Both the position numbers and the translations under genes were made by a program. Below the pieces are notes generated by a model. That model had not been told where the DNA came from, searched no databases, and saw only the letters and a list, made by a program, of their open reading frames with translations. A stretch of DNA of 64,000 bases from Branchiostoma floridae (taxonomy: Eukaryota; Chordata; Leptocardii; Amphioxiformes; Branchiostomatidae): the NCBI RefSeq assembly GCF_000003815.2, contig NC_049997.1, forward strand, positions 2,096,484 through 2,160,483, given 5' to 3'. Below, piece after piece: positions 28,508 to 53,306 of the stretch. The first letter of the stretch is position 1, and the number at the start of each line of letters is the position of its first letter.

Positions 28508-30111
28508 AACAAGGCATTTCCACATGAAAAGAGTCTGAAAAGTTTCATCTTAATATTCTAATGCAGTATATAACAAAGAAATTGTGTTTTTTTTATACAT
28601 ACTCTGGTAACAAACACAAACTACAATGAATAACTTTACGTGCACATGGTTGCTTCATAAACCAAATATTGAGGCCTCAAAGGATCATTTTCATTCTTAT
28701 GCTTCCTGATACAAAAGGGTTTTAAGGTAAGCTTGCTGATAGAAATCTACTACTTTTACCATCTCCAAACCTGATACAATGTACCACTTTCTTAGTATGA
28801 AAGCATTCTTCCTACAAAGTGTTACATGTATCAAAGAATCAATCAATACATATCTAACATGTATTGACGAAGTACAAAGTGTATTGGAAGATCTACTAAG
28901 CTTCAAGATACAAACTTAACATATCACAAAATACAATACATGTACTATTAAGGTTCTCTTTAACAGGATAGTGGAGATTTGTTACTGCTGAAATTTTGAC
29001 ATTTGTAAACTTAGAGTATTCAAACCTTGCGCACCCATGTTACTAGGTATGTGTATAAATTGAGCTACTAAACTATATACCTCAAGCAATAACGTACATG
29101 TGCTTTTAAAGCTTAACGTGTACATTTCATTTTCTACATGTACATGTAAGCATTCTTTCACACTATATTGAGCACCAGGACATAGTCAGCTTTCACCGTT
29201 TTTGGCACAAACCTGTAACAAATACAGATCATATTGAAATGGCATGGGCTTTTTACCTGTATGATACCCTTCATATACACGAAAGACATGGAACTTGCTT
29301 ACTTCATGTTTTCACTTCTGCAAATTGAAATCTAAACAGGATGCTAGGCACACAGTGTCATTAAGATACACCTCTAGACAGTCTTAATCTACATAGTTTT
29401 AAACTTAAACTTTTCACGCTTACACGAAAAATACACGATACATCTATGAACCATCTACAAACTATATATATAATATTTCAGTTCTATTGTTCTTGAAATC
29501 ACACGCTACCACTACAAAATATCGAAATACATAAGTTGCCATATACATGCACTGATTCACTACTGGTATGATTTCTATAGATCCATTGTATGTTAAGTGG
29601 CATACTGTATTATCAGGAAAAGTTAGAATATCACTTGACCTTCCCTGAAAAGTTCAAAAGCGTACTTTATATGCTAAATATGCCCAAAAGTCATGTTCTT
29701 TCACATATTACCCCATCCATGTAGCTGCTCAATGCTCAAAATGTCCTCCACGGTTCCCTGGTCTTTCAATAGCACATCACAAAAAAGGACAGCCATTAAA
29801 AGATATTAAAAATGTGTTTGATGCATTTGCAAAGATTTTGGTTAAAAGAATTGTTTTAGTACAGTTCCAAAATACCCAAACATCAATGTTTTATACTTAC
29901 TTCCTAGTAAATACTTGTTTTGTTACTAAAAACCGATGTTATCCCTACTAGAAAAATTTAGAAAATTTACCACCAACATAAAAAAAAATTAAACACAAAA
30001 GACATTGAACTCTAGCATGGGTTCTTTGCATGATGACATCATACACCAATACAGTTAACTGAATTATTCAGGTACAGGCATAGGTACAGGCACTGTACGC
30101 AATTCTATGTA
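28508..30111. other. non-coding stretch downstream of the zinc-finger gene
   Basis: AT-rich, with short overlapping ORFs only. In the sense of the minus-strand zinc-finger gene this is downstream flank or 3' UTR. No feature supported. Confidence 0.4.
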
Positions 30112-30319
30112 CCGTAAATGCAGAAATGTTTGCGGTGGATTAATGTTCGCAGTTTTCGCGGGGAACTCTTTACCGCGAACTTAAAACTACCGCGAACATT
30201 TTTCTATTATGGTATTAGACTGCAGTCTATGGTGTTACCGCGAACTTAAATCCACCACGAAAAGTCCCTTTTTCCGCTACCACGAAATTAAATCCCCGCG
30301 AACTTAAATACATTTACAG
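30112..30319. mobile_element. mariner-like MITE, 208 bp, second copy
   Basis: Reverse-orientation relative of the element at 13966-14173, again TA-flanked, ends CCGTAAATGCAGAAATGTT and CATTTACAG. Same length; words such as ACCGCGAACTTAAA are shared. Confidence 0.75.
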
Positions 30320-30349
30320 TACTTTGGTATTACTATCATTACTTTCAGG

Positions 30350-30569
30350 TAACGCTAGTTCACCTTTATCCGTGGGGTAACCTTTATCCCTTGTTATTCA
30401 AAGCAGGGTATTTAGGGACATCAAGGGAATAGGTGGTACTTTAAAACTGCAAAATACTCAAAATATTGCAATTTGAAACCAATGTCCGTTGATGTGATAT
30501 CCCAAAATAACCCTGTTTTTTAAAGCAACGGATATAGGTTACCCAATGGATAAAGGTTAACTAGCGTTA
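30350..30569. mobile_element. MITE with TAACGCTAGTT termini
   Basis: Left end TAACGCTAGTTCACCTTTAT is inverted at the right (ATAAAGGTTAACTAGCGTTA). Inner GGGTAACC / GGTTACCC words and a nested AGGGTATTT / CCCTGTT pair are also inverted. About 220 bp, no ORF. Confidence 0.65.
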
Positions 30570-31356
30570 CATACTAGCCATATACTCAATGTTTTTGTTT
30601 TACAGGTTAAGAAAACTCCACTGCCAGTACTCTCTGACATTTCTTGATACTGTTCTCATGAACTATTAACACAACGATAAGTATAAAATCTACAGGTTTA
30701 CAATATCAGATGCAAGCATATCCCTGAAATATGTCCATTCCAAGTAACATGCTCCTTCTCAGTCAAGCTCGAAATTGCACAAAGACCAATGCCTCTAAAT
30801 GTGGTGCTAGTTGCATTATTGAAGTTAGCAAATTATTTGCTGCAAAAAATCACTTAAGAGGATACAATCATATAATTATGTCATGGAAGCTCCTGGTCCC
30901 TGAGTTACAGTTATACTGCATGATTATGGGTATCATCAACACGAAGCAATCAATAACAAACAAAACCAAAGAATGAAACAGAAATAATTGTTAACATGTT
31001 TTTATAGCTAACCCACTGTGATTTTCTAATATCGATATACAGTTGGATGGACAGAGAATGGGTCCTTACAAAATCTAGAAATTCAAAAGGTACAGGTTCT
31101 AAATCTTATACTAGTGTTCACATTTGTTATGCTTCATCTACAAAATATGAATATATAACTGGAACAAAATTTTCAAAAATACTACTTTCAAACTTTTCAT
31201 TCAATTTGTTTGGTGGTGAAACAGACAAGTAACTAATGGATCATAAATCTCATATGCATATTTGTGACATGGTAATACAACATCTGTAACATTAAGTGTT
31301 TCAGATACTGTACAATGTCTATATATAAGTAGTACAGAGTTCACAGGGTAAGAATC

Positions 31357-33449
31357 TTAGTTCATCTTTCTCTTGGACCTCCTCCTCATCTGATGTGCAC
31401 CAGAGACTTTTGACTCTTCTCTTTTTCCCAGATTCTTCTGGCCAGCCTTTTTCCTTACATGTGGCCTTTTTTGTGGAAGTACTGAAAAGGGGAAAAAGAT
31501 GTGTTTTTTAACAAGTTAATAGACTAATGTTTTCTAATGTGAGCCTCAATTAAGAATTGTATAAGCAATGTACACCAATAATGTACATGTGATAATAATG
31601 CAAGACAAAAAACCTGGGCTATTAGTTACAAACTAACTTCAGAATTTATATGTTCTTTAAGTTTAAGTGAATAGTTTTTGGAAAAAGGTTGGTACTGTAA
31701 ATTGTAAAATATTCAGTAGTATTATCTTAATTTTCATGGTGACTTTTCACATATGCTCTGTCTTACACTACATTACTACAGTTGTTTCAACTACACACTT
31801 GGACGCCCAAAATACATCATTTACCCTCCTAGCACAAAATTGAGTCCCTTAAAAAAAGTACAATATCACTATGGTAGATGTACCTGTCTTAGTGGGTTTT
31901 ACAGGCTTTGCCTTTGTTACTGCCCCAGTTGTCAGTGCCCTGTGGTCTCTGCAATGCTCAGATATGGCTGGTCTGGATACTGTACTGAACTGGCACTGAC
32001 CACACTGGTATCTATGGGGAAAATGGACTTAATGAAGACTTCATTGTCCAAAAAAGTGAGAATGGGCTCTAAAATAAGACATTTGCATTTCATTATGTTG
32101 TGTTTTAGTGTGTTTTCCTTTGTTGTGTTTGTGTTTTTTTGTGTGTGTGTGTTGTGTTGCCTTGTGTTGGGAAGCAGGTTCAATCAAATCTTATTATGCT
32201 ATTGTCAGCCGAGACGGCCTACCGGTAGATCGGATTGTTAAGCACTATCTAAAGTTAGGCCATATCAATTTCATTTGTTGATTCTCTTACCTTTTCAGAA
32301 AATAATGTGAAGCGATATGGCGAAAAAAATTGCAAAACGTCTGCAGTAAAGAAAGGCCTAATATTAAACATAAACAATAAAAAGTTTTCTCAGCTTATAA
32401 AAAAAATCACTACCACTATGCAGTAGATAAAGCTGTTTGTTGAAAATTATCAAAAGTGCAGTTTCTATGAATGCATTTATTCCCTTTATGAATGAAAAAC
32501 AGTGTGCATTGATAACACACTGTAAGGAGCTTATACGTTATCCAGTTCGCTTCTGCACCTTTTAAGGAGAGGTCCAGATCCCTCAGCTTGCTGTCAAGGT
32601 TGTTTTTTTTTCACTATAAAGGCACTAACTTAGTGACTAAGGCCAATTTTTGCTGTGGAAAATCATTGAATGGCTTCATATATAGAAATTTCATGGTGAA
32701 AGTTTCCAAAGAGAAGATGTGGTGATTTTTTTTCTTCCTGTTTTGTTATTTTTTGAAAAAAATAGGTGTGGGCAATTTTGAGAACCAATTAATTACATTG
32801 ATGAGGCCTTACCTACCAAAGATTTGCCAAATCAAAACATTAACCCAAAAGATGTTGCAGGTTGTTTGTATACCTACCTGTTACCAACATGATGCCACAG
32901 AATGAGAGCAGAGGGTTTTCTTTTGGCATTGCCTGCAGGAATGTCAGGAACAGCAATAGCAATACATGACACAAAATATGCAACAACAATAAATTTCAAG
33001 GGACAGTTCCCTTGATCTTATGGATCATACTTATCTAAGCAGACAACATTAAAAGTGAAACAATATTTGTCTTATCTATTTATCTATTTTGTAGACACAA
33101 AAGATCAAAAACATTACATTCATCGTTTTGTGCTATGTTTAGACAATTTTTTTAACTGTTATGAAGAAATTTGCTGCCAAAATTTGTCATACTTTGCACC
33201 TGAAAGAGATTTATTGCATAGAAATTGCAAAAGGCCTGTGCAACTGCTGTGCAATTAAGTTCATCACTTCATCATATTTAGTTAAAAATTGGCTATAGGG
33301 AATTCATAGCTAAAGTGCTATAAGATCCTGGACTCCATACATGATACTTACTTGCACCTTTCCACTTCCCGTGGTCTAAGACATGCTTGTTATGGATGTG
33401 AAATTCTAGCTTCTTCTGCGAACTGCATTTAAACGTACACTTTGGACAC
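31357..33449 (-). CDS. C2H2 zinc-finger gene, exons B-E (3' part)
   Basis: Minus-strand exons: B 33352-33449, C 32878-32932, D 31884-32011, E 31357-31481 (stop TAA 31357-31359). B encodes a finger C-x2-C-x12-H-x4-H (CPKC...HIHNKH). D encodes a second, C-x2-C-x12-H-x3-H (YQCGQC...EHCRDH). E is a very basic tail (QMRRRSKRKMN at the end) that may be a nuclear localisation signal. All junctions are GT-AG and in phase (B ends phase 1, C phase 2, D phase 1). B and C are exact copies of plus-strand 45026-45123 and 45543-45597. Exon A lies only in the neighbouring contig at 36709-36926. Joined A-E gives 624 nt, 207 residues. Likely a nuclear DNA- or RNA-binding protein; ortholog not recognised. Confidence 0.82.
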
Positions 33450-35044
33450 CTGAGAAAACAGAGAAAGAGAAAAGAAAAGATGCATATGACAGTTTAACGA
33501 CACCATTCCCAAATAGGTGTTTTCCCTTCTGCACATCACTGTTGATAGATGTATCAAAAGGACAGCATCATGGCATGCCCCCTAGCAGCCAGTAGAACAA
33601 CTGCAGACAATGGTAGAATACTAGTACTAGACTTTATATCCATTTACCAATGTAAGGGGGCGGTCACACGTCTGTGATGTATGATTTGAGTTATTCCAAT
33701 AGAATCCAAATTTTGGGCATACAGATGTACAGCAGCATATTGACAATTTTCATACGAACCTCGTATGGACTTGAATATATAGTACGCATGTGATCGCATG
33801 CTAAGTCAGTTATAAATTTGGAGGTACATTGTACTAGTATGTGCACTGAAATATTTTTTCTTTGGTCATATGACAGGTAAAGTGCCTAAAGGCGTAACAC
33901 TCCAGTTCACAAGCTGCACTGTCATGTAAAGCAACAACTCAAGCATACGTGTGATCACACATCAAGTTTAACATGCTCGAGGTGTAATTATATTTCAGCC
34001 ATACCATAGGTATGGTGAAATATATTGTATTCGTAATGTTTCTTTCTTTCTTCTTTCTTTCTTTCTTTCTCCTGCCAAATCTTCAAATCGAATCAACTCC
34101 GCCGTTTTTTAACCGATTGACTTGAAATTTGGCACAAAGGTAGAGTAAGCCAATACCCTTAGGTGTTTTTTTCATTTTTTTCATATCTGCCTTTGAAATG
34201 ATTTTATTGAGGTTTTTGTCAATTTTTATGTATATTTTGGGCTCCTGTACCCTGGTATTACAGCCGAATGACATGAAATTTGGTACAGAGGTGCCCTGAT
34301 CATATGCCCACCCAGATTTAATAGCAGTTTTGGTATACGGTACAACAAAATGCTTAATTTTGCGATTTTTGGCCATTTTTTGACAAAAAAAGCACATTTT
34401 TGCCTCCTGTACCCTCGTTTTACAACCAAATGACCTGAAATTTGGTATACAAGTGCCCTTCAATTTTGTGCGCATGAATTCAATAACAGTTTTTCCATAC
34501 AGTACAACATAATGCTCAATATTGCATTTTTATGGCCATATTTAGACAAAAATTGGACATTTTTGGCTCCTGTTCCCTCGTTTTACAACCAAATGACCCA
34601 AAATTTGGTAAAGGGGTGCTCTAGATATTTATCCAAATGACCCATGTATAATTTTTGGCATGGAACACTTTAAAATGATATATTTGGGAATTTTTTGGGT
34701 CATTTTCCAATGGCCAAAGGGGTCAACGACCTCAAGGCCTATTGTTGCATGAGGAAGATGGCTGAAATATGCTGTATTTGCTCTCAAGCAAATGTCGGCC
34801 TTTCTAGTGCTTCACATATGATCGTACATGTACCATTGAAAATTCATCACTAGTGGAAGCTACGTCCTCATTTTCACCTGAGTCAAATGAGTCAAATGGG
34901 ACACAATAGCTTTTAATAGACCTACTACATCACAAAATTGTTTGTTTGTTTGAATTTTTCTTCATGAAAACTGTAATTTGCCGTTTTTCATTGAGGTCAT
35001 GAGGGAAGAGGTAAGGGTCAGATAAGATATAACAGAAACGCAGA
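32641..35044. repeat. 2404-bp segment duplicated in reverse at 43431-45834 (contig overlap)
   Basis: Position x here corresponds to 78475-x there. All stretches I compared were identical, including three long ORFs and both exon copies. This arm ends exactly at the N gap starting at 35045; the partner ends exactly at the N gap starting at 45835. Equal length and gap-abutting ends point to an unmerged contig overlap rather than biology. Confidence 0.92.
33987..34808 (-). repeat. tandem-core repeat with hairpin end (copy inside the duplicated arm)
   Basis: Reverse complement of 43667-44488. Contains (CTTT)n, the CCATACC-TAT-GGTATGG hairpin and two to three core units. The long minus-strand ORF at 34083-34475 is an accident of these units. 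Confidence 0.75.
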
Positions 35045-35144
35045 NNNNNNNNNNNNNNNNNNNNNNNNNNNNNNNNNNNNNNNNNNNNNNNNNNNNNNNN
35101 NNNNNNNNNNNNNNNNNNNNNNNNNNNNNNNNNNNNNNNNNNNN
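35045..35144. other. assembly gap, 100 N, probably a wrong join
   Basis: Separates contig 28508-35044 from contig 35145-45834. The overlap and exon evidence say the left contig should join the right end (45834 side) of the next contig in reverse orientation. Confidence 0.95.
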
Positions 35145-35201
35145 CCCAGGACACATATAAGGCGATTGGAGAGTACAGAATTAATTATATCTCAAACTCA
35201 C

Positions 35202-35729
35202 CTTTCCGATATTCGTATTGGCTTCTTTGTTGCCAATGTTAGCAAGTGCAGCGCGTGGTCTGCCTGTCGCCATCTTGTTCTTGGCCATGAGGGCTTTGCC
35301 GGCCAAAATATTCTCATTCTGGCTCTGAAAAGTAAAGAAAAGAAAGTAAATATTAGATGCCTACACATGCAAAACGCGGAATGAAGACCCACTATGAAGG
35401 TGATACAATTTCACAAGCTATTTGGGATTCGCAATTTTGGTATTTAAATTTCAAAACCTCCCTGGTAGAAATGCCGTTGCGCCAAGACAAAGTTTGCTGC
35501 AGTTCAAAATAGTTTCGACCATCTGCTAGTAAATAATAGTAGCCGTAGTTTGCAATAGATAGATCTTTCAACAATTAAAATTACGCGATGAAAAGTGACT
35601 ATATATGCGTAAAAATCGTTCGACGATGCGATAATATGCTCAACAAACCACGCCAAAGCATTTTTATGAAGACAAAGACTGAGTGAAGCTCACCGTGGCA
35701 GCAGAAGCGGAGCGGGTCCTCAAAGCCAT
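35202..35729 (-). CDS. CCNB: cyclin B, first two coding exons (partial)
   Basis: Exon 1 is 35694-35729 (MALRTRSASAAT, ends phase 0 at GTGAGC); exon 2 is 35202-35324 (41 codons, acceptor TTTTCAG, donor GTGAGT, phase 0). Residues 36-44 read RAALANIGN, an exact match to the mitotic cyclin destruction box (R-x-x-L-x-x-I-x-N) recognised by the APC/C. A short N-terminus followed by this box is the B-type arrangement; cyclin A boxes differ. The cyclin fold itself is not in the window: the contig ends 57 bp past exon 2. B-type cyclins bind and activate CDK1 for entry into mitosis. The start is the only Met in frame and follows CCAAT/CHR elements. Confidence 0.85.
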
Positions 35730-35909
35730 TTTCTCCAAAAATAAGTACAGCTGGGAACTGAGAAGCGGTGGACGGCTTCGATATGCTCTTGAGTGAAGTT
35801 CCTTGTGAAAAACGAACGAATCGCAGGTAAAACTCTGCAAAACTGACGACCAAACAATCGGGAAACGCAGCCAAACTTGCAACTGTGTGCTTGTCTGTGA
35901 GCAGCGCTT

Positions 35910-35981
35910 TTCAAATGCTTCATAAACCACGCGCTGAGCTGTCATTGGCCAGAAATGTTAGCCACTCGGAGCTCCCATTGG
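35910..35981 (-). promoter_or_regulatory. G2/M-type promoter of cyclin B: CHR and two CCAAT boxes
   Basis: On the minus strand: CCAAT at 35977-35981 and 35944-35948, spaced 33 bp, then a CHR element TTTGAA at 35910-35915, about 30 bp further down, and the ATG at 35729. Two NF-Y CCAAT boxes about 31-33 bp apart upstream of a CHR (DREAM/MuvB site) is the known layout of vertebrate cyclin B and other G2/M promoters. Confidence 0.65.
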
Positions 35982-36185
35982 ACGCAGTTGACCCTTAAAA
36001 TGCGTTTTCATGGCAACAGGACAAAGGTTAATTTTTTGGGAGAATAAAATGTTAAAAGTTACTGCTGATATATAAAAAAAGGACAAAAAGATTATTTGTA
36101 AAGCATAATTATTTTTATCTTTAACTTAAATGCTCCGAAAGAACATTCCGTATCTTGTTGGTGTCAAAGGTCAACAAGGTATTTT

Positions 36186-36196
36186 AAAATGGCGGC
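36186..36196 (+). promoter_or_regulatory. YY1-like AAAATGGCGGC motif, probable promoter of the zinc-finger gene
   Basis: AAAATGGCGGC resembles the YY1 motif often found just downstream of metazoan transcription starts. It lies between the cyclin B CCAAT boxes and exon A of the zinc-finger gene, consistent with a divergent promoter. The short ATG frame inside it ends after 17 codons. Confidence 0.35.
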
Positions 36197-36700
36197 GTCT
36201 TTCCAAATTTGGGCTGCTGAGTTGGTGTGTTTTGTTTGATTTTGGCGGGTGTTTTATTCATAAAAAAGTTTGCTGTTAGAATAGTGCTAGTGTGCATTCA
36301 TTGCAGCTTTATTTGGAAGATCAACCCTCTTAAAGGTTTGGACAATCCCTTTTATTCTACCGACTAGGGTAGTAAACTATTTGAAGTTTAAAACTTTGTG
36401 TCAATAAGCTCTAACGTTACCACCTAGGGAGAAGCAACACTTGTTGCCGTGCCCAATAGATCTGTTATTTTCAGTGATAACTGCAAAAAAAAGCATGTAC
36501 ATACCGGTCTATTACACTAAGAAGGTCAAAATAGACTATATATGCATGTTTAATACTTAATTTTTGACGACATTTACAAATTTTGATCATGATAAAAATT
36601 AGATATGAACATTTGTAATGTGACAGGCACATATGGAGAATATAGGCATGATGATAAAAGAAAATGAATGAATGTATCGTATTGTATGATATCTTTCCAG

Positions 36701-39700
36701 GTTTAGCCATGACTTCACGGGTGTCGTTGACAAGATCGCCATGTGGCAAGGCAGCGTGTCTGGGATGTGCCGATCACACAGTCCATCACCGAGATACGCC
36801 AACCAGACGGCCGGTCAAGCCCAGGATGTTTCTGTGCAATGAGAAGAACTGCAACAAACAGTTTTCCTCCATGGACAAGCTGGGGGCTCATCTGAGGGTT
36901 CACAACAAACCCAGCGTCTTCTACCCGTGAGTACAGTGAATTCGCACATGTTCACGAGGATTCTATTCACCAGGTCAAGGAGCTTTCATCAGCTCCTTGA
37001 TTTCACAGTAGAGGGGGAACGGAGTAACACATATTCACTTTGTAAAAATAAAACCATGGCAAACATTTCAACTTTTACGTTATGACCCGAAAGTTCATTT
37101 GTCTGTACTTTGCTGTCTCCAGATGCTGTTGTTCTGTTCCTTGATAAAGTTTTGCTCTATCGGACATGTCTCCCTGGACAAACAAAAAAATTTGAACTTC
37201 ATATCATTTTTGTTAGGTTGTCAACAGTGCCAAAGGGCTGTCACAGAATCAGGATGAAGCCATTCACTTCTCAGAAATATGAGCTCAAGATTTCCTTTAC
37301 TCTATGTGCTGAGCAATACCCTGTCTCCTAGTCCTAGATTCTTGTCTCCTTTGGCACTCTTCACAGAGCTTTGCTTCATGAAAGAAAATTGATGGGACAA
37401 GCTGAAATTTAGAGCTGCATAGAGTGAAGTGCATCTGACTTAAGTGGCCATGGGGCATATTGGTGACAACTTGTATTGTAAATACATGTACATAGTGTTT
37501 CCTTCCCACTTAACCAGGTACTGCACTTTGGGACTGTGTAGCACAGTTGTAGTTTGTTTACCTCGGAACCGAGAGGTTGCGGGTTCAAACCCGACTGCCG
37601 TGCCACCGATCTTGTGCCCTTAGGAAAGGCACTTTACACGGCTTTCCTCACTTTACTCGGGTGTAAATGAGTACCTAGCTTCGGCTAGGGCTTCGTGTAT
37701 GGGGAGAGAGCCACACCCCATGCACGTTAAAGAACCCCCACATGTGCAATGGTGCGGTGTGCGTTGGTGCAAATCCTTCTGTCGGAAGTTGGTGATTCAC
37801 TTCAAATCACCTGTATGGAGGCCTGGCGAACCTCTGTCTCGTATCAGTCACATGGTGATTTACATCATTCACCCGGACGGGTGTGTCACCCCGCAAGGGG
37901 CGGTATAACCCGGTACCCAGTGTATTGGTACCCACCCCTAATTGGAACCAGAATGTTTTCAGAGGCATTTCCAAGGCCATGAAGGAACGTGGCTTCAGCA
38001 AGACATTGGAATGTCGGACGACTCGGACCATTACCAACTCGGCCCAGTCAACTCGGCCCATCTGCCGGGACAACTCGGACCATCGCCCTTGGTCAACTCG
38101 GACCATCGCCCTTGGTCAACTCGGACCATTATTGGAGACAGAAATTAGACACAAACACACACACGCACAATAATAATTTTCGATATACATCGAGCTTTAA
38201 TCATCGGTTGTGTTCAATTTAATCCAACTGTGTTTTTTTTTCCACAGGTAACGAGTAGAACTGGTGCTACTCCTAACTCGACAACGTCAAAAAAGACGGT
38301 GTGAGCCGGTCGGCAAAAATATCTACTAAGTATTTCGAGCTTAGTTAACGGCAAATACTACTCTACAAAGCGATCTTAGTTTAAACGGCAAAGAGTACCA
38401 AAATCATACTGATGAACACACTATTGGGCAAACTAAGTATATACACGTACAAGTTGAGCCATTTTTACATTCACATATTATTTCGCTGTCTTCGTATACA
38501 TCGTCGCATGCGGTCGGCAAAAATATCTACAAAGTATTTCGAGCTTATAAGCTTAGTTAACGGCAAATACTACTCTACAAAGCGAGATTAGTTAACGGCA
38601 AAGACTACCAAAATTATAGTAATGAACACATGAAACTATTGGGCAAACTATCTAAGTATATACACGTACAAGTTGAACCATTTTTACATTCACATATTTC
38701 CTGTCTTCGTACACATCGTCGCATGCGGTCGGCAAAAATATCTACTGTACAAAGTATTTCGAGCTTATAAGCTTAGTTGACGGCAAATACTACTCTACAA
38801 AGCGAGATTAGTTAACGGCAAAGGCTACCAAAATTATAGTAATGAACACATGAAGCGATTGGGCAAACTATCTAAAGTATATACACGTACAAGTTGAGCC
38901 AGGAATCACAAACATAAACAAAGGAAAACATGGCGTCTCCGATGGGGGCAAGCTATCCCATGAACCACTGCGAAACGGCGGGAACTAACGAAGTTAGGAA
39001 ACGGCGGGAATTTTGAATATATTTTTTCCTTTCACGAAACTTGGGCGGGAACTTTGAATGCGTTGAATAGTGTTTTCTACAGTGTTAAATAGTGTTGTCT
39101 CGTGCTGATTGTGCTAACAAGTGTGACTTACTGACGGTCGTCGGAGGTCAGGCGGATGTGGCGGATGGTCGGGCCATAGATTCGGGCACACACCTCGAGC
39201 AGCTCCCTTGCCGTGTAGAAGTCGTCGTCGAACCGCTCCCATGCTGTGAAGATCTTGCCCTGGAGATTCTTGTATTTCTGCCTCTGATGACTGCGGAGGC
39301 GCCCCTCGCACACCATGCGGACCTGGGCTTTCACGATGAGGCTCTCCCTGTGCAGCAGGTCCACCAGCAGATAGAAGGGTAGCTTGGCCTTCCTTGCCTT
39401 CATGTTGAGCCTTCTATGCCACCCTTCTACATCGTTGTTCGTTCGCACAGACTGCATGTAGACGCTCCAGCGACGTGGAGTGAAGATGGTACTGTTGAGC
39501 CAGGTCTGCCTCACGTATTCAGCCAGGCTGGTCAGCTCTCCTGCTGATTTCCTCGTCAGTTCTTCCAGTGCTGCGGGAATGCTGGCGGCTGGCAAGAAGG
39601 GGAGTGCCATGAGTTGTCTAACCCAGGCATGGACGCGCTGGTCCCTCCGGTACGCCGTCTGCAGCCCATGCTCCTGCACTTTCTTCCATACCGCCTGACA

Positions 39701-42700
39701 CCAGTGAAACACACACCCCTTGAACCGTACATCAGGAAACACAAGTGCAAACGCCTGCCATGCTGCTACCTCAAAGTCCATCACGCACTCCTCTAGTTCG
39801 ATCTCATCCGGCAGTGCGTTTCGCAGTTCCTGGAGTACGGCTTCGTAGTCCTTCCTGCGCTTGCCGGACATGAAGGCGAAGGCGAGGGGTACTTGTTTGA
39901 CGTCTTCTCCGCGCCTGATGAACGCGTGCACTGAGAATAACTGATAGAAAGGAGCACGTACAACCTTAAACGTAGAGTCCACATACCAACGTTTGGCTTC
40001 TGCGAGGCGCTCAATCTGGTACGGGGTAGCGAGGAGGATGTGCCTGTTCTTAGCTCCCGTTCTCGGTGACGTCACCTCGATGTCCTCAACCAGGAAGTCC
40101 TCTGGGATGTGCCCGATGTCAAGTTCGAAGTCCAAATCTTGAGGTTCGTCCGGTCGAAGCTTGGACTTGGCCCGATTGACTTGTCGGATGAGGGCTGCAT
40201 GGCTCGGTAGACCTGGGTTGTCTGCGTTGGCTACAATCACCTCGTCCACGAGGTTCGATGCCGGTTCGAAGATCTGTTGTGGGGCCTTCGTTCTGATGTC
40301 TACAGTGATTCTAGCACGGAGTTCTGCGTCCTGATTGGCTGGATGTATGTGATCCGGCAGGCCCGGTTCGAACACATCTCCTTTCTGTATCACGGTTGCA
40401 GGACAGTCGGTGGTTTTGTTTCTCACGGCGCATCGCCAGTGCACGCTGGTCTGGGTATCCCTCTTGAACGTGTAGGTATACCCATCACTGCTAATCAGCT
40501 TGCCCTTGCCCCTTTGCGTGGATGCGGGGATCAAGGTGAAGGTAGTAGCCGGGTTGTCGTTGACGTACGGGTCTTCGTCGAATGTCACGTCGTCAGGATG
40601 CCGCTGTGGTAGCTCCTGAACGTCTTCGACATCAGACACAGTTCCGTGACTGAAGTCTGACAGACCGTTTACGTCCTCTTCATCTTCGGACTCAGACTGA
40701 CTGTACATGTCGTCATCTTCGGGCTCGGACTCAGACTGACTGTACATGTCGTCATCTTCGGGCTGAAGCTGAGAACAGTCGTTGCACCTCCAAGCCGCCA
40801 GCTCTTCATTGGCCTCCCCTCGATTCATGCGTCGGTAGCTCTCTCTGGAGATACCTAGGAGAAACAGAAAACAATGGATTATTAATATTGCATCTATAAG
40901 ATAAGGTCCGGAAATCAAACTAGGTAAGCGATGTTTTAGCTAGTACAAATGCAGAGAAGAGCTTGCCATACTATCAAGGGTAGCAACTATACTGGATATT
41001 CATATATGATATATGATATAGAACACAGACTTTAATTATCTGTTATCTGTATTAGTTATAATCAATCAATTAACTAGAATAACCCATAACTTAACTGCCT
41101 AAATTGAAATAAAGCAAAATTTTCTCTTACCTGTCTGACAAGCACGATGCTGCCACTTCTCGCAATCACACTGTAGTGCCTCCTGTCTCCGACGAACCGC
41201 TTTCCTGCATACTACACAAGTAACCATGACTGCCGCTCTCGGGTGTAAACTGGATGACAACTAGACTGGTTTGCCATAACATATCTGTTTTATAGCCCAA
41301 CATGTTGTCTAACAAAAAGCCGCGGTCTCTATTCAAAATCACGTTGATTGCCTTAGCGCCGGCGGTTTGGGACGTCAAAAACTTCAAAGTCAACAGCTAG
41401 AAGTTGTCTGACAAAAAGCCGCGGTCTCTAAAAGTCTATTCAAAATCACGTCGATTGCCTAAGCGCCGGCGGTTTGGGACAAAGTCAACAGCTAGAAGTT
41501 GTCTGACAAAAAGCCGCGGTCTCTAAAAGTCTATTCAAAATCGTGTTGATTGCATAAGCGCCGGCGGTTTGGGACGTCAAAAACCTCAAAGTCACAGTTA
41601 GACATTGTAGGACAGAGACACATTTACAAAGTGTCAAATAAACATATATTCAAAGTTCCCGCCGTTTGCTAACTTACCGCAGTGATCCGTGGGATAGCTT
41701 GCCCCTGGCGGAGACGCCATGTTTTCCTTTGTTTTTGTTTGGGATTTCTTTAACCAAATCATGCATCAACGATACTAGCTCCAAGCTCAGAACTTGTGAA
41801 TAAGAAGACAGTTTGGTCAACCATATGTTTCTTTTGTTCTCGGTGCCATTCGCTGCTATTTCATTTGTGTAAGTGACAAGGGGTAGATATTTTTACTTAG
41901 TAAGATATTTTTGCCGACCGGCTCACGCCGTCATTTTTGACGTTGTTGAGTTAGGAGTAGCACCAGTTCTACTCATTACCCGTGGAAAAAAATGAACACA
42001 GTTGGATTAAATTGAACACAACCGATGATTAAAGCTCGATGTACATTGTATATCGAAAATTATTATTGTGCGTTTGTGTCTAATTTCTGTCTCCAATAAT
42101 GGTCCGAGTTGACCAAGGGCGATGGTCCGAGTTGACTAAGGGGGTGGTCCGACTTGTCCATGGGATGGTCCGACTTGTCCCAGCAGATGGGCCGAGTTGA
42201 CCAGATTTCCAGTGGGCCGAGTTGGAAATGGTCCGAGTCGTCCTGCTTCCCAAGACATTGCTTCATTTCCAATCAAAGACCAATAATCTGATGCAGAAGA
42301 ACAGGATTTTGCAGGATAACAACAACCTCAGTGAGTCAGAGGTCACATTACCATGCATTACCATGCCCTTTTCAACGAACTGAAATGGTTTGCCCGTGGG
42401 AACAAGTTTGCATTGTGAATGCAAGATGCAAATCATTTGCTATCAGGTCAAACAGATAAAACCGTTTGGATTTTTGCATCATGTACAGGACCCAACATGC
42501 AAAATTTGTTGGCTCTTACAGTGTTCAAAAACCAGTTACCCTGTGGTTCCATATTACCTTGTTGCAAAATCTTAAGACTACTTTGAAAGGTCAGAAAACC
42601 AAGGACATCTTGTATGACCCTGGAACTCCACCAAATAGGTTGTAAATAACTTGTCATATCAATCATAAAAGTGTAATTGTAATGCACTGTGCAAATGTTC

Positions 42701-45597
42701 ACATGTTTTCCAATACCATTGTCTCTTAGAAGCACAGTTTTCATTTCAAAACCATTCATACAACTGTAAGTTTCCTACAGTAAAGTTGTCTTCATGCTAT
42801 TGACCTTCGTGTCATCTTGTGACAGCCAGGGGCACTGCAGCTATTGTTGTTTCTTGTGAATCTGTACTTGCTGCCCTTGGGTTGCCAATGTAAACTCGCC
42901 TCACCCATTTTTTTTATCAATACATAGCACAACAGTAAAAAAATCTTTCTTATTCCTTAAAAAATTGATACTGTTTTCTTCCAAGGCACTTGGACCAATC
43001 AGAATAGGATGCAATAACAAAGTAGCCTGCCCTAGGGCACATGACTAATGGATTTTTAAAAAAGTCTCAAAGTCTCAACAAGTACATACTGTATGCACTT
43101 TTTGTTTTGTATATGGCATCCTATCCTGATGCGAATAGAGAAAAATAAAGAATTAGCTTAACAGACAAGGTAGCTTTCTTTTGAAAATATAGACAGGATA
43201 GAGGTGTTGTGAGAAGGAGCATAATGCCACAGAGACTCCTAGTAAAACAAGCAAAATAACTGAAAAAAGGGAAAAGACAACAAAAGGAAGTGTTGATTAG
43301 CTCTTGTCTTGTCACATCCTTTGTTCTTCCCAGCAGTTTGTCACCTTGTGGTAACATAGCTTGGGTGTGAACATAGTTATCTTTTTATTATTATTGTAAA
43401 CTCAGGAGTACATGCTAATTTATTGATTAATCTGCGTTTCTGTTATATCTTATCTGACCCTTACCTCTTCCCTCATGACCTCAATGAAAAACGGCAAATT
43501 ACAGTTTTCATGAAGAAAAATTCAAACAAACAAACAATTTTGTGATGTAGTAGGTCTATTAAAAGCTATTGTGTCCCATTTGACTCATTTGACTCAGGTG
43601 AAAATGAGGACGTAGCTTCCACTAGTGATGAATTTTCAATGGTACATGTACGATCATATGTGAAGCACTAGAAAGGCCGACATTTGCTTGAGAGCAAATA
43701 CAGCATATTTCAGCCATCTTCCTCATGCAACAATAGGCCTTGAGGTCGTTGACCCCTTTGGCCATTGGAAAATGACCCAAAAAATTCCCAAATATATCAT
43801 TTTAAAGTGTTCCATGCCAAAAATTATACATGGGTCATTTGGATAAATATCTAGAGCACCCCTTTACCAAATTTTGGGTCATTTGGTTGTAAAACGAGGG
43901 AACAGGAGCCAAAAATGTCCAATTTTTGTCTAAATATGGCCATAAAAATGCAATATTGAGCATTATGTTGTACTGTATGGAAAAACTGTTATTGAATTCA
44001 TGCGCACAAAATTGAAGGGCACTTGTATACCAAATTTCAGGTCATTTGGTTGTAAAACGAGGGTACAGGAGGCAAAAATGTGCTTTTTTTGTCAAAAAAT
44101 GGCCAAAAATCGCAAAATTAAGCATTTTGTTGTACCGTATACCAAAACTGCTATTAAATCTGGGTGGGCATATGATCAGGGCACCTCTGTACCAAATTTC
44201 ATGTCATTCGGCTGTAATACCAGGGTACAGGAGCCCAAAATATACATAAAAATTGACAAAAACCTCAATAAAATCATTTCAAAGGCAGATATGAAAAAAA
44301 TGAAAAAAACACCTAAGGGTATTGGCTTACTCTACCTTTGTGCCAAATTTCAAGTCAATCGGTTAAAAAACGGCGGAGTTGATTCGATTTGAAGATTTGG
44401 CAGGAGAAAGAAAGAAAGAAAGAAGAAAGAAAGAAACATTACGAATACAATATATTTCACCATACCTATGGTATGGCTGAAATATAATTACACCTCGAGC
44501 ATGTTAAACTTGATGTGTGATCACACGTATGCTTGAGTTGTTGCTTTACATGACAGTGCAGCTTGTGAACTGGAGTGTTACGCCTTTAGGCACTTTACCT
44601 GTCATATGACCAAAGAAAAAATATTTCAGTGCACATACTAGTACAATGTACCTCCAAATTTATAACTGACTTAGCATGCGATCACATGCGTACTATATAT
44701 TCAAGTCCATACGAGGTTCGTATGAAAATTGTCAATATGCTGCTGTACATCTGTATGCCCAAAATTTGGATTCTATTGGAATAACTCAAATCATACATCA
44801 CAGACGTGTGACCGCCCCCTTACATTGGTAAATGGATATAAAGTCTAGTACTAGTATTCTACCATTGTCTGCAGTTGTTCTACTGGCTGCTAGGGGGCAT
44901 GCCATGATGCTGTCCTTTTGATACATCTATCAACAGTGATGTGCAGAAGGGAAAACACCTATTTGGGAATGGTGTCGTTAAACTGTCATATGCATCTTTT
45001 CTTTTCTCTTTCTCTGTTTTCTCAGGTGTCCAAAGTGTACGTTTAAATGCAGTTCGCAGAAGAAGCTAGAATTTCACATCCATAACAAGCATGTCTTAGA
45101 CCACGGGAAGTGGAAAGGTGCAAGTAAGTATCATGTATGGAGTCCAGGATCTTATAGCACTTTAGCTATGAATTCCCTATAGCCAATTTTTAACTAAATA
45201 TGATGAAGTGATGAACTTAATTGCACAGCAGTTGCACAGGCCTTTTGCAATTTCTATGCAATAAATCTCTTTCAGGTGCAAAGTATGACAAATTTTGGCA
45301 GCAAATTTCTTCATAACAGTTAAAAAAATTGTCTAAACATAGCACAAAACGATGAATGTAATGTTTTTGATCTTTTGTGTCTACAAAATAGATAAATAGA
45401 TAAGACAAATATTGTTTCACTTTTAATGTTGTCTGCTTAGATAAGTATGATCCATAAGATCAAGGGAACTGTCCCTTGAAATTTATTGTTGTTGCATATT
45501 TTGTGTCATGTATTGCTATTGCTGTTCCTGACATTCCTGCAGGCAATGCCAAAAGAAAACCCTCTGCTCTCATTCTGTGGCATCATGTTGGTAACAG
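36701..45597 (+). CDS. C2H2 zinc-finger gene, exons A-C (5' part)
   Basis: Exon A: acceptor TTTCCAG, exon 36701-36926, start ATG 36709 in a good context (GCCATGA); an upstream non-coding exon is implied. It encodes a first finger C-x4-C-x12-H-x3-H (LCNEKNC...HLRVH) and ends phase 2 at GTGAGT. Exon B 45026-45123 completes the split codon as Pro and enters YPCPKCTF without a break. Exon C 45543-45597 follows (phase 1 to phase 2). Exon C then meets the 100-N gap; its continuation, exon D, is on the minus strand of the previous contig (31884-32011) and matches in phase (AG+A gives Arg, then YQCGQC). Exons A to B span 8.1 kb because of the SINE, MULE and tandem-core repeat in the intron. Confidence 0.8.
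36976..37001. repeat. hairpin TCAAGGAGCT...AGCTCCTTGA
   Basis: Ten-base stem around TTCATC, inside a degenerate MITE-like stretch (about 36934-37080) just after exon A. Shares AAGGAGCTTTYATCA with the hairpin at 27096-27123. Confidence 0.6.
37533..37910 (+). mobile_element. tRNA-derived SINE
   Basis: A-box-like TAGCACAGTTG and a perfect B box GGTTCAAACCC (37582-37592) mark a tRNA-related head. The body includes TAAATGAGTACCTAGC, GCACGTTAAAGAAC, CAAATCCTTCTGTCGGA and CATGGTGATTTACAT. A diverged body copy is at 47998-48330. Too long and unfolded to be a tRNA gene. Confidence 0.75.
38020..38135. repeat. subterminal CAACTCGGACCAT / CAACTCGGCCCA array, left end of MULE
   Basis: At least six copies of CTCGG(A/C)CCA in direct orientation within 110 bp, two as an exact duplicate CATCGCCCTTGGTCAACTCG. 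The right end (42092-42240) carries the inverted counterpart with about seven copies. Likely transposase-binding sites. Confidence 0.75.
38307..38905. repeat. three tandem units of about 205-215 bp inside MULE left arm
   Basis: Units start with CGGTCGGCAAAAATATCTAC at 38307, 38511 and 38726. Each contains TTCGAGCTTAGTTAACGGCA and GTATATACACGTACAAGTTG. The right arm has only a single start of this unit (near 41905-41925), so expansion is one-sided. Confidence 0.8.
39128..41227 (-). CDS. MULE transposase with PHD-like and FLYWCH-like zinc fingers
   Basis: Two exons: 41131-41227 (ATG at 41227, donor GTAAGA, phase 1) and 39128-40854 (acceptor CTCCTAG; stop TAA), 607 residues. The unspliced ORF from 40918 would replace the first finger half with intron sequence, so the spliced start is preferred. 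Domains: PHD-like finger, residues 4-59 (C4, C7, C20, C22, H27, C30, C56, C59; the second pair is C-x-C); acidic region with a duplicated DDDMYSQSESE; FLYWCH-like finger about 150-203 (WRC at 172-174, CPATV from 183, H201, H203); MULE DDE core with D325 (YVDSTF), D392 (VMDFE), a GCVFHWCQAVWKK helix and E509 (NNDVEGWHRRLN). No stops or frameshifts, all three acidic residues present, so it may be functional or very recent. It cuts and pastes the element 38009-42251. Confidence 0.92.
41305..41605. repeat. three tandem units of about 100 bp upstream of the transposase
   Basis: Each has AAAAAGCCGCGGTCTCT, TCTATTCAAAATC, TTGATTGCCT and GCGCCGGCGGTTTGGGAC. They lie just 5' of the transposase start codon and may belong to its promoter. 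Confidence 0.75.
42261..43430. other. non-coding stretch (zinc-finger gene intron)
   Basis: No exon or clear repeat ends seen. It lies in the intron between exons A and B, and is unique to this contig (outside the overlap). Confidence 0.45.
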
Positions 45598-45834
45598 GTA
45601 GGTATACAAACAACCTGCAACATCTTTTGGGTTAATGTTTTGATTTGGCAAATCTTTGGTAGGTAAGGCCTCATCAATGTAATTAATTGGTTCTCAAAAT
45701 TGCCCACACCTATTTTTTTCAAAAAATAACAAAACAGGAAGAAAAAAAATCACCACATCTTCTCTTTGGAAACTTTCACCATGAAATTTCTATATATGAA
45801 GCCATTCAATGATTTTCCACAGCAAAAATTGGCC
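43431..45834. repeat. 2404-bp reverse copy of 32641-35044 (contig overlap)
   Basis: See 32641-35044. This copy ends exactly at the gap at 45835; its other end (43431) continues into sequence absent from the partner contig. Confidence 0.92.
43667..44488 (+). repeat. tandem-core repeat element with hairpin end, complete copy
   Basis: 5' end CTAGAAAGGCCGACATTTGC with stem ATTTGCT/AGCAAAT, then ATATTTCAGCCAT. The core units start with GCATTTTGTTGTAC-like words at 43960 and 44122. The 3' part has (GAAA)n, CATTACGAATACAATATATT, hairpin CCATACC-TAT-GGTATGG, then CTGAAATAT. ATATTTCAGCCAT at the 5' side is inverted as ATGGCTGAAATAT at the 3' side. No ORF of its own. Confidence 0.75.
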
Positions 45835-45934
45835 NNNNNNNNNNNNNNNNNNNNNNNNNNNNNNNNNNNNNNNNNNNNNNNNNNNNNNNNNNNNNNNNNN
45901 NNNNNNNNNNNNNNNNNNNNNNNNNNNNNNNNNN
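45835..45934. other. assembly gap, 100 N, probably a wrong join
   Basis: Follows the overlap copy. If contig 35145-45834 is flipped, the base at 45834 belongs beside 32640 rather than beside 45935. Confidence 0.95.
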
Positions 45935-46139
45935 TTTTTATCCTCTTCTATTCCTGTAATTCTCAGAGTGATAACAAATCCATATGTAACGTGATAAGAT
46001 CTAGAATTTCTGACATGTCATATATATTCAAACCTTCTGTCATAGTTTGAGTATTGATACTGGTAAGCCAAGGATTTATAAGACCTGTGAAACAGCATAT
46101 ACTATGGAAAATATTTGACTTACTTGATCTTTCTTGCCC

Positions 46140-47210
46140 CTTCGGGAGCACAGGGCCTCAGTAATTCGTCCTCACCTCCTTTGATCTTCGGCAGTCTTCT
46201 TCGCCTCGTGCCATGAGGTGTTTTTGTGTTCTAGGTCTTTCTTCACCCCTCTCCTCCATGACATTCTGGGTCTTCCCCTTCTTCTCTTGCCCTGGAGGTT
46301 ACACTTTAGTACTGCCCTCGTGATGGAAGATGGTGGTTTTCTCAAGGTGTGTCCAATCCATCTCCATTTCTTACGTCTGATTGTTACTTCCACGGGTTCC
46401 TGGAGGTCTTCATTGCTTATCATCTGTACTGTGGCCACCAGATGCCGAGTATGTAGCGAAGTCTTGCATTGATGAAGGTTTTGGAATTACCTGATGTTGT
46501 GTTGTGTCAGGCCCCACGTTTCGCACCCATATAGCAAGATGAACTTCACGTTGGATTCAAAGATCCGCAGCTTTGTTCTGAGGTGGATGTTCCTGGCCCT
46601 CCGTCACTGCTGATGACACTCCCAAAGCACATGAACTCACTGTCTTCAGTTTTGTACGTCTGCAGCACACCGGTCTGGCGCTCCCCACTATTTTGTCTCG
46701 CATCTCTTCGGTTTTTGTTGCCTTTATGGTCAGTCCGACTTGGCCCGAGTTGTGTTCTAGTTTCTGTGCCTTTTCCCTCATCTGGCTGATGCTGTGGCTC
46801 AGGAGGGCGAGGTCATCAGCGAAGTCTAGGTCATCTTACTCTTAGGCCGGACACAGTAAGAAAAAATGACAAAATAGAAAGCCCGATAAAAACGACTAAA
46901 AAAAACGTTAAAAAACAGCCGGAGCCTAACCTCTGCTTGGAGAGTAGGTCATCTAACATGCTTGTCAGTGTCCACTGAATTCCTGTTCTTCCCGCTTCAC
47001 TTTCTTTCATCATCCAGTCAAATACAGTTATAAACAGCAGCGGACTCAGGAGGCACCCTTGTCGTACTCCAGTGGTCAGGTCTCCTTCGTGAGTTACTTG
47101 TGCCTGAAAGCTGGTGTGAAATACTTTTAATCATGCTGATTATCTTTGATGGATACCGTAGTGGGCAAGGAGATTCCACAGTGTAGCCCTGTCAACCGAG
47201 TCGAAACATA
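46140..47210 (-). pseudogene. LINE reverse transcriptase fragment, decayed
   Basis: Minus-strand translation in several frames shows non-LTR reverse transcriptase motifs: FDSVDRATLWNLL (motif A), GVRQGCLLSPLLF (B), DLDFADDLALLSHS (C, FADD), then GLTIKATKTEEM. The C-terminal part reads KKWRWIGHTLRKPPSSITRA and GKRRRGRPRMSWRRG. Stops and frame changes (for example after HYGIHQR and near 46172), and a 108-bp insertion at 46837-46944, break it. The 5' part and endonuclease are missing, as in 5'-truncated LINE copies. The clade is not assigned with confidence. Confidence 0.85.
46837..46944. mobile_element. 108-bp insertion in the LINE, 10-bp target duplication
   Basis: TAGGTCATCT occurs at 46827-46836 and 46945-46954, and removing the insert plus one copy restores DDLDFADDLALL. 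The ends are imperfectly inverted (TTAGGCCGG / CCGGAGCCTAA); the centre is T-rich on the minus strand. Confidence 0.75.
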
Positions 47211-47997
47211 TTTAGAATTAGATAATTTGATCTACGCTCCGCTCTGCAAAATTATAATCAGCGGACACCCCCCACCCCCACCCTGAACCCAATAGAGGCT
47301 GTACAAGAAGTTGCCTGCGTCCGAAAGAACTTGTAGATCCTCACCTCACCTCACCTCACCTCACCTATCTCTTGACCTCAAACTTGTATATACTGAATGT
47401 CAAACATAGTGGAAGACTTCTAAGATTGCGAATTAAAAGAGCTTTTTAAAAAGGCCACGAAATTCCTTCCGCATTTCCCCGTGTTTACAGACAAAAAAAA
47501 ACTACATTCCTTCTAACATCACAGAACCCACACCTTAAAGAAAAAGTGGGATCCTTTGTCTTCCACTGCCGAACCCAAAAAGTTTAGAGTTATCTTTGGA
47601 CTAGAGTGGACATATTCTATACTGTTGTGTTCTACACTGTTTGTTTGTCCCCGTTCATGTCAACTGCAATTAGCCCTCGGGCAGGAATCTGCAATAAACT
47701 ATTATTACTAATTAACTCGCTATTATTAGAACACCGTAAAAAATGTATACAAGAAAACTGTATGATATCTGATGAAGCATACACGAGGTGCAAGTGGTAG
47801 CGCAACACCGTTGCTTGTCCATCTGATCAAATCCCAAAATTTTCCAAATTACAACCCCCATGCAACAATGGGCTCTACCATTCAAAACTTACTCAAGAAC
47901 CCAAAACATAAATCCTGGGTGTACAAATAACTACGTGTGTGTGCGTGTGAGTGCTCGCGCGTTCGTGTTTGGAAGGGGTATGAGTGATTATGAATGC
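47211..47997. other. non-coding stretch with short microsatellite
   Basis: Contains (CACCT)n at about 47341-47367 and a diverged tRNA-SINE-like head near 47785-47834 (GTGGTAGCGCAAC and GATCAAATCCC). No coding sequence supported. Confidence 0.4.
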
Positions 47998-48330
47998 TTT
48001 ACTCAACAACAACACTTCCTCACTTCACTCAGGTTAAAATGAGTACCTAGCTACTGCTAGGGGCGCCCCTCGGATAGGACGAGAAATGGAGGTCCCGTGT
48101 TGGGGGAAAGCCACACGCCACGCACGTTAAAGTACCCACGTGCCTCCGTACAAATCCTTCCGTCTGGAGTTGGTGATTTACTACAAATCACCCGGATGGA
48201 GGCCTGGTGAACCTCCATCTCGTGTCAGCTATACTATACGGTGATTTACATGATTCAACTGGGCGAAAGACCTGGCGCACCCTGTCTTGTATCTGTCAGA
48301 GAAAGGGTAATTACACCTGGGGGTGGTATA
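47998..48330 (+). mobile_element. diverged SINE body, same family as 37533-37910
   Basis: Shares AAATGAGTACCTAGCT, CACGCACGTTAAAG, CAAATCCTTCCGTCTGGAGT, GTGATTTACTACAAATCACC and ATGGAGGCCTGG with the first copy. The normal tRNA head is not directly attached. Confidence 0.65.
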
Positions 48331-48399
48331 AACAGAATCTTACAGAAGTGATACCTTTCTGGGGGAACAGTGCGCCAGCTACAGTTCGGCAGTCTACAT

Positions 48400-48844
48400 C
48401 CACTGTGGCACCGGCGCGTCGAAATATGCAGAAAGTTTGCAAGGACACTGGAACCTGTGCTGCTTCCTCCGTGGCTGTGGTAGTATTTATTCCGCTTATG
48501 GATGTCCACCACTGGGGTCTATCCAAGTGTGTGCATAATGGTGTATAGAGGTCACAAGGTGTATAGAGGTCACAGCCCAGGATAACCCTACCTGCCCTGT
48601 TTTGGAGTTTCTGTAGTTTGTCTATGTAAACCTTGTTGCCTTGGTTCCAGACAGTACTACAGTACTGTATGTGTGGAAGGAAAAGGGATGTATATATTGT
48701 CAGTAAGGCTTGTCTGTTAGTTAAAGGCTTCAGGCACTTCATGATGCCGATAGCTTGCGAGAGTTTCTTTGTGACACGAATGATCATTCCACTGTAGAGC
48801 ACTGTCAATGACTATAATTAAGTACTTAAAAGTGTAAACCTGGT
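48400..48844 (-). pseudogene. second LINE reverse transcriptase remnant (CR1/L2/Jockey-like C-terminus)
   Basis: Minus-strand translation gives VIDSALQWNDH, then after a frameshift VTKKLSQAIGIMKCLKPLTN, LLTIYTSLFLPHIQYCSTVW, and KLQKLQNRAGRVILGCDLYT. This is the thumb/C-terminal region of CR1/L2-like reverse transcriptases. An 18-bp duplication (GGTGTATAGAGGTCACA) and frame changes follow. The 5' side is cut by the gap at 48845. Confidence 0.85.
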
Positions 48845-48944
48845 NNNNNNNNNNNNNNNNNNNNNNNNNNNNNNNNNNNNNNNNNNNNNNNNNNNNNNNN
48901 NNNNNNNNNNNNNNNNNNNNNNNNNNNNNNNNNNNNNNNNNNNN
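48845..48944. other. assembly gap, 100 N
   Basis: Cuts the LINE remnant at 48400-48844. Confidence 0.99.
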
Positions 48945-49239
48945 CAAAGGCATATGCAAGATATCGTAGTGTGTTCCAAACTTTTACCATAGAATGAAAT
49001 ATCTAAAATGATTAACTTTAAGACTCCTTTCTATTTCGATTGAAACATTTCTTTCATAAGATAAAAGCATTGGCCAAGAGAACCTACGACGTCTCTTCAG
49101 ATGGGAAAAACAATACAATGTACTAGTATTTGAAAGACAATAACGTTACAAGCGGTAACGTTACACATCGAAAACTATCTATCTAATCTATTATTGACCT
49201 ACCCTGGGAAAACGCAGACTCCTAACGAGGCACGCAAAG

Positions 49240-49421
49240 TTTACCGATCCCTACAACACGCACGCACGGGACACCCGCCGCCTAACACCCGCCGGCCCTC
49301 GAACCAGCTGGCCCCTACTACCACTTGCAGCGATGTTGGGGACCGGCGTAAGTGGGGCCAGCTGGTAGTGGGGCGGGTGCATAGAGGCTGGAGGGCGCGC
49401 GTTAGGCTGGGGATCGGTAAC
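49240..49421. repeat. GC-rich inverted-repeat element
   Basis: GTTTACCGATCCCTA at the left pairs with GGGGATCGGTAAC at the right, and inner blocks ACCAGCTGGCCCC / GGGGCCAGCTGGT are also inverted. Probably a MITE-like element; no ORF. Confidence 0.5.
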
Positions 49422-49423
49422 TC

Positions 49424-49633
49424 TTATTTGCGAAGCTTCTCGAGCAGGTTTCCCAGGGTATTATTGACCACATCGCCTACTAACCTGCAGAAGTTGATGG
49501 CTCTGTCCCCCAGTTGTGGGAAGAAGTACATGCAGACGAAAACTGCAAGTCCCAGCACTGTGCACAGCACGAACACCAACCATAACAAGATCACCAACAG
49601 GGCTACTGCGATCTCTAACAACATCTTGAACAT
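49424..49633 (-). CDS. possible small single-pass membrane protein, 69 residues
   Basis: Single-exon frame MFKMLLEIAVALLVILLWLV..., with one hydrophobic run at about residues 5-38 and an amphipathic C-terminus ending in KLRK. The composition is less AT-driven than neighbouring chance ORFs. I recognise no family, and no promoter or poly(A) signal was confirmed. It could be a spurious ORF. Confidence 0.3.
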   Translation of the reverse strand: MFKMLLEIAVALLVILLWLVFVLCTVLGLAVFVCMYFFPQLGDRAINFCRLVGDVVNNTLGNLLEKLRK

Positions 49634-50277
49634 GCCTAATATTTATAAGGAACATGAACGTTCTCAAGATAGCGATCAGCAAGGCGTCTTGGTCACTAAG
49701 GCAACAACTGTTTGAAGACTTTTAGGTATCTGATAAGGTTGTTCTGTATTACTACACTCTAGGTGTACTGTGGTCTCCTTGTATTCCTATACTTCCAAAC
49801 TGAGTCATAAAGTCAGATGTCCCCAACGCTTACGTGTACTTCCGGGTTTTCAACATGCAACAGTTTCAGGTGTTGGTTTTCCTCAAATGATACAGTCAAA
49901 GTGTCGTGTTTGTGCTTCATTAATGATGAAGCTTGTCCCAGGAAACAGTCAGCTCCTCGTCCTTCTAGATTTGTCCGATCGTGAAGAAATGATATTTTGC
50001 AGACTTCTGTTGACGATGTTGTTGTGGGAGGGTACTAGGGTGGGATCTTGGGATGACCAAGTTGAGTCATTCAAACGTTAATCTCACGTTTGCTCAATTT
50101 CTAACGATCTTAAATCGACGAGATGATCCTTGGTGAAACACCACCTCCCCAAGATCAAAAGTTGAACATCTGTGGCTATGAAAACTGAAGAAAACACCAG
50201 GCGCACAATTACAAGTCGACTACAGATAACCTTGCTTCCGCACAGCTGACTATGGGTCAAAGGTCAGCCAGACCAAA

Positions 50278-50728
50278 ATGGCTGCCACGGGTGTGTTGGC
50301 GATAGGGTTTGTCGGTTTGTTGGCAGTTTTCGCGCTGCTGAGGTTGTTCTTCGTGTTCAGAGGATTGGGAAAAGACAGAAAACCCTTGGCAAGATCCGAT
50401 GGCACCATCAGGACGTTAGTTGTTGTCGGTTCAGGTGAGAAATACGCGTTAAGCCTCGGGGGGAGGGGCGAACGTTAACGGGACTGTCCTGCGAACTTTG
50501 AGCGTTTACAATTCCGATCTAAGCTAAATTTTCACGTTTAGTATAAACTTTATGATATCTTTATATTGCACATTTGCAGGAGGCCACACAACTGAGGTTC
50601 TACGTCTCATGAGTGGGCTGTCAGACACGTATTCCCCGCGCTATTACATCATCGCTGAGACAGACCAAATGAGCGAGGAAAAAGTTCACAGGTTCGAGAG
50701 AGGAAAACATCCAGGAAAGAAGGGCGTG
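50278..50728 (+). CDS. ALG14: ALG14, UDP-GlcNAc transferase membrane subunit, exons 1-2 (partial)
   Basis: Exon 1 is 50278-50434 (ATG at 50278, donor GTGAGA, phase 1); exon 2 is 50580-50728 (acceptor TTTGCAG, donor GTAAGT, phase 0). The protein starts with a hydrophobic anchor (about residues 3-27) and continues with LVVVGSGGHTTEVLRLMSGL and YSPRYYIIAETDQMSEEKVH, the conserved start of ALG14. ALG14 is the ER membrane anchor that recruits ALG13 to form the transferase adding the second GlcNAc to dolichol-PP-GlcNAc in N-glycan synthesis. About 101 of an expected 215 or so residues are present. The contig ends 21 bp after exon 2 and no later exon is seen after the gap. Confidence 0.92.
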
Positions 50729-50749
50729 GTAAGTCTGCCATTCATAGCT

Positions 50750-53262: not shown

Positions 53263-53306
53263 GTCTGGCTACAAGTATTGTTTAAGCTTCATTGTATTTC
53301 ATTTAA

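Follow-up and report, generated by a model that had tools for sequence, protein, structure and literature searches.

The question raised by this locus is whether a perfect inverted repeat that ends at two assembly gaps belongs to the genome of Branchiostoma floridae or to the way in which its contigs were laid out. The window, by which we mean the whole 64,000-nucleotide stretch of DNA that was analysed, corresponds to positions 2096484-2160483 of its scaffold. The repeat involves two adjacent contigs, here called A and B, that share a segment, R. An earlier note had read this arrangement as an unmerged overlap of two 3' ends, with one of the contigs reversed. The features concerned are the following.

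28508..35044, plus strand: contig A, 6537 bp, with a 100-N gap on either side.
32641..35044, plus strand: the copy of segment R at the right end of contig A, identical at 2404/2404 positions to the reverse complement of 43431-45834.
35045..35144, no strand: the 100-N gap between A and B, a placeholder; if B lies backwards, the true A/B distance would be an overlap of 2404 bp.
35145..45834, minus strand: contig B, 10690 bp, which on the same reading would have to be reverse-complemented (x to 78475-x).
43431..45834, minus strand: the copy of segment R at the right end of contig B, the reverse complement of the copy in A.
45835..45934, no strand: the 100-N gap that separates B from the contig that follows.

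Direct base comparison of the two arms detected 0 differences, and the identity of these equal-length reverse complements, which had been claimed before, is now complete. Each arm stops exactly at a 100-N gap, as was also claimed, and the opposite borders (32640/32641 and 43430/43431) run into unshared sequence inside their own contigs. The geometry is that of a dovetail overlap of two 3' ends: the end of A at 35044 equals 43431 inside B, and the end of B at 45834 equals 32641 inside A. The conversion of x to 78475-x that had been proposed for B is correct for both pairs of positions. In the present layout the two arms of the inverted repeat lie about 8.4 kb apart. It is impossible for a match of this length to have originated by chance.

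To place this overlap among the other contig ends, prefixes and suffixes were compared in both orientations. The window contains 11 contigs, of which the outer two are cut at its edges; among them, the A/B pair provided the sole exact end overlap of at least 12 bp. A 200-kb sample of the same scaffold, with 23 contigs (the outermost being cut by the sampling) and 22 gaps, contained just one further exact end overlap of at least 15 bp, 19 bp long, between two contigs of one tandem array. A long exact end overlap was found at 1 of the 22 gaps, a sample too small to give an error rate; no second flipped overlap was present in the 200 kb sampled, and a general habit of the assembly is not demonstrated. 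At 2070609-2079483 of the scaffold, four short contigs separated by gaps of 171, 729 and 940 N make up one diverged tandem array, the contig pieces of which are 88-100% identical (the fully identical piece is 40 bp long). This array looks like an incompletely assembled satellite.

Self-comparison of the window showed that its longest other repeat pair measures 1370 bp, with 96.4% identity. Outside R, contigs A and B had no match with each other at E <= 1e-10. We also observed an inverted repeat at 9681-13962 with arms of approximately 1.36 kb that are 96.4% identical, with a tandem repeat of about 190 bp inside each arm; it looks like a foldback-type element. This repeat lies within one contig, away from the contig ends, whereas the R pair is located at contig ends.

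We then asked how often R and the unshared parts of B occur in the genome (513,431,437 bp in 431 contigs, the window's scaffold accounting for 17.1 Mb). Three features are relevant to this search.

33983..34808, also 43667-44492, no strand: a dispersed repeat of about 826 bp in R with a tandem core of about 162 bp, recognised from genome matches.
38049..42177, no strand: a DNA transposon of the MULE type within contig B; close to its ends it carries imperfect inverted repeats of about 284 bp (89%).
39128-40918, minus strand: the MULE transposase frame, 596 aa, with a MULE transposase domain (E 1.5e-10) and a FLYWCH finger (E 1.5e-7).

Full-length R was found at 2 places only among the 52 matches listed genome-wide, which came from the best 40 of 4607 candidates. 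The other 50 listed matches were partial, and all fell inside R positions 1342-2185. No third full copy of R was found among the scored matches, and because the candidates were scored best first, such a copy should have shown among them. Nor did a second haplotype of R appear among the matches scored from these 40 of 4607 candidates. A repeat-driven match as the source of the overlap was rejected, since only R 1342-2185 is repetitive genome-wide among the matches listed. Copies of the 826-bp repeat, up to 98% identical, occur on many scaffolds, and the repeat is probably a young non-autonomous element; a diverged relative of it at 3316-5313 spans a 175-N gap. The unshared flanks of B likewise had no second copy: the segment 35145-37700 gave itself and 39 short matches confined to query positions 2375-2548 (best 40 of 3021 candidates), and the segment 42178-43430 gave itself and 39 matches confined to query positions 66-337 (best 40 of 298). 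A short check for a target-site duplication of the MULE element at the ends of the BLAST match found none, and the true ends of the element are thus not fixed.

The gaps and the sequences that border them bear on how R came to lie at two contig ends. Gaps of exactly 100 N make up 9/10 of those in the window and 14/22 of those in the 200 kb, where the remaining 8 have varied lengths, from 171 to 2161. We infer that the 100-N gaps are placeholders introduced by the scaffolder and that the varied gaps are estimates made by the shotgun assembler. In the 400-base ends that were compared, neither the left end of B (35145) nor the left end of the next contig (45935) carries a tail of R; the local alignment scores at these two present joins were 9 and 9, and 50 shuffles for each join averaged 9.3 and 9.0. 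The join that would be made by reversing B, between reversed B and the contig at 45935, showed no shared sequence either (score 9, shuffled mean 8.9). This is expected of an ordinary gap and counts neither way. All four tested pairs of 400-base contig ends scored 9, no better than the shuffles. Five successive contigs of 1.0-2.9 kb, with 100-N gaps between them, follow at 45935-57245; if they were placed by contact data alone, their order and orientation would be as doubtful as those of B.

The earlier reading of an unmerged 3' overlap and a reversed contig is supported by the complete identity of the arms, the dovetail, the lack of a third full copy among the scored matches and the joins without tails. 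On this reading the true order would be the one that had been put forward, 28508-35044 followed by the reverse complement of 35145-43430, which amounts to 14,823 bp (6537 + 8286). Judging from the sequence, we think it very likely that A and B overlap, were left unmerged and that B was placed backwards, in which case the inverted repeat would be an assembly artefact rather than a new biological feature.

A course of events that would produce this layout can be outlined. A and B would be adjacent in the genome, with ends that derive from the same 2404 bp of one haplotype. Thin coverage, or the near-identical, many-copy 826-bp repeat within the overlap, may have kept the assembler from merging them. 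A later scaffolding step would have inserted the 100-N placeholders and reversed B, and with B reversed the overlap appears as an inverted repeat. The error may have arisen at this scaffolding step, and it is presumably B in place, rather than a larger block, that is misoriented. The history of the assembly, as described in portions of PMC7269912, includes steps of this kind: ARACHNE was run on about tenfold Sanger data from a single diploid animal, giving separate assemblies of its two divergent haplotypes, HaploMerger2 then resolved these, and the contigs were ordered and oriented by HiRise from Chicago and Hi-C data. According to the sections of PMC6719893 that deal with Hi-C scaffolding, inversion errors are common for short input contigs. 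Together, these two accounts point to a possible cause of the misorientation of B. As in the cases of PMC6719893, the contig here is short (about 10 kb) and is bordered by 100-N placeholder gaps, and its orientation was presumably set by contact data. From an overlap such as that between A and B, an assembly graph could also have given the orientation of the contig (PMC6719893). The scaffolders tested in those sections are, however, other than HiRise, which was used for B. floridae.

The coding potential around the junction may also bear on the orientation. When the 200 kb were scanned in six frames for the C2H2 finger motif, 33 hits were returned, a count that includes overlapping matches and both R copies; most of the hits look like chance matches. 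From these 33 hits, three exon-like finger loci were chosen by eye.

33352..33449, minus strand: a probable C2H2 zinc-finger exon in R, 98 nt; its other copy is at 45026-45123 on the plus strand.
31942..32004, minus strand: a C2H2 finger motif that lies in A outside R, from the motif scan, with a Pfam match to zf-C2H2_16 only (E 0.039, under the cut-off).
36835..36903, plus strand: a C2H2 finger motif that lies in B outside R, from the motif scan; after reversal of B it would lie at 41572-41640 on the minus strand.

The R finger matched Zn_SUZ12 (E 0.0061) and zf-C2H2_16 (E 0.028 and 0.01) in Pfam, all under the curated cut-offs. The matches of the B finger, zf-C2H2_8 (E 4e-5) and zf-C2H2_6 (E 3.5e-4), are fair, yet both are under the curated cut-offs as well. 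In the present layout, each contig would carry a different truncated piece of a finger gene. Reversal of B brings all three fingers onto the minus strand, with the B finger first, then the R finger and then the A finger. The three fingers would agree in strand by chance with a probability of 1/4, and their arrangement on one strand modestly favours the reversal of B.

Splice signals were read by eye. The exon containing the B finger ends in ...CC/GTGAGT, and a strong AG acceptor precedes the R exon, whose first base is G, so that the phases fit; because both exons are in contig B, this fit supports the gene and not the A/B join. The nearest clear splice acceptor of the A finger does not match the phase left by the R exon, and a link between the two would require an extra exon or another splice site. 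When exons were modelled from simple splice scores, the initial thresholds returned none; with relaxed thresholds the R exon was recovered in both contigs, with two alternative ends, and no other exon was. For the fingers of B and A, the exons are accordingly proposed from the motif scan and from the reading by eye. When the R finger alone was used as query, no candidate homologue that could fix the order of the gene was obtained. The two exons of contig B gave 7 matches in their own genome when the best 150 of 1721 candidates were scored; 3 were at the locus, and the 4 elsewhere were weak (E 1.3e-4 to 9.7e-4). The best match in the PDB was zinc finger protein 410 (E 4.5e-11), one of 53 sequences at E <= 0.01, and as far as similarity allows us to judge, this is general finger similarity without a named orthologue. 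It seems that the placement of B cuts a probable zinc-finger gene.

Other explanations of the repeat have to be weighed against the reversed overlap. Because haplotypes were held apart in this assembly and merged with HaploMerger2 (PMC7269912), A and B could be overlapping pieces of two haplotypes that were left adjacent after merging. Heterozygosity is given in the relevant part of PMC12862219 as about 3% in B. floridae parents and as 3.2-4.2% in sequenced species, which predicts approximately 72-101 allelic differences over 2404 sites. Where alleles would differ at that many sites 0 differences were found, and we conclude that both arms come from one haplotype; the failure of A and B to match outside R speaks against two haplotypes as well. 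An overlap of haplotypes, being incompatible with heterozygosity of 3-4%, was rejected, and we would give it scarcely any credence. Much the same small weight falls to the idea that R is an old inverted repeat or segmental duplication of the ordinary kind, its arms homogenised by gene conversion. Other inverted repeats do have similar arms, the one at 9681-13962 in the window (96.4%) being an example, but the arms of R are wholly identical and both stop exactly at contig ends, and the next longest pair in the window reaches only 1370 bp and 96.4%.

A real inversion deserves closer attention. One could envision a young, polymorphic inversion of about 8.3 kb with staggered breaks, in which the 2404-bp breakpoint segment was duplicated in inverted orientation, the zinc-finger gene was split on one haplotype and the assembler broke the contigs at the borders of the duplicate. 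Read from left to right, unique A is followed by R, the inverted segment, R reversed and the next contig, which is the outcome of staggered breaks described for Drosophila (PMC5080602), where, in the D. subobscura inversions that this source covers, an inverted duplicate is located on both sides of the inverted segment. The R duplicate does flank the inverted segment here, although this is equally expected of the artefact. Complete identity of the arms would require only that the event be young: at a mutation rate of 5.89e-9 per base per generation (PMC12862219), one difference is expected per approximately 35,000 generations, and a real duplicate could therefore be no older than some tens of thousands of generations. 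Unlike the D. subobscura breakpoints as PMC5080602 describes them, however, both R copies stop precisely at an assembly gap, and no R tail is carried by the flanking contigs. Such a tail would be expected on the contigs at 35145 and 45935 if reads had crossed the breakpoints, and neither has one; this is evidence against an inversion but no disproof, since the assembler could have trimmed the tails. An inversion would further need contig breaks exactly at both borders of the duplicate and would break a probable gene, whereas Hi-C scaffolding, according to PMC6719893, commonly misorients short contigs. A real small inversion with a duplicated breakpoint is less likely than a flipped contig, and we regard it as quite improbable, if somewhat less so than the two explanations considered above.

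If, as we think, A and B are overlapping neighbours and B was laid backwards, users of the assembly would meet an inverted repeat and a 2.4-kb duplication that do not exist, as well as a spurious inversion relative to other assemblies. The reversed contig would also break the model of the probable zinc-finger gene. Similar errors could be found genome-wide, and corrected, by searching for exact end overlaps in the wrong orientation across placeholder gaps.
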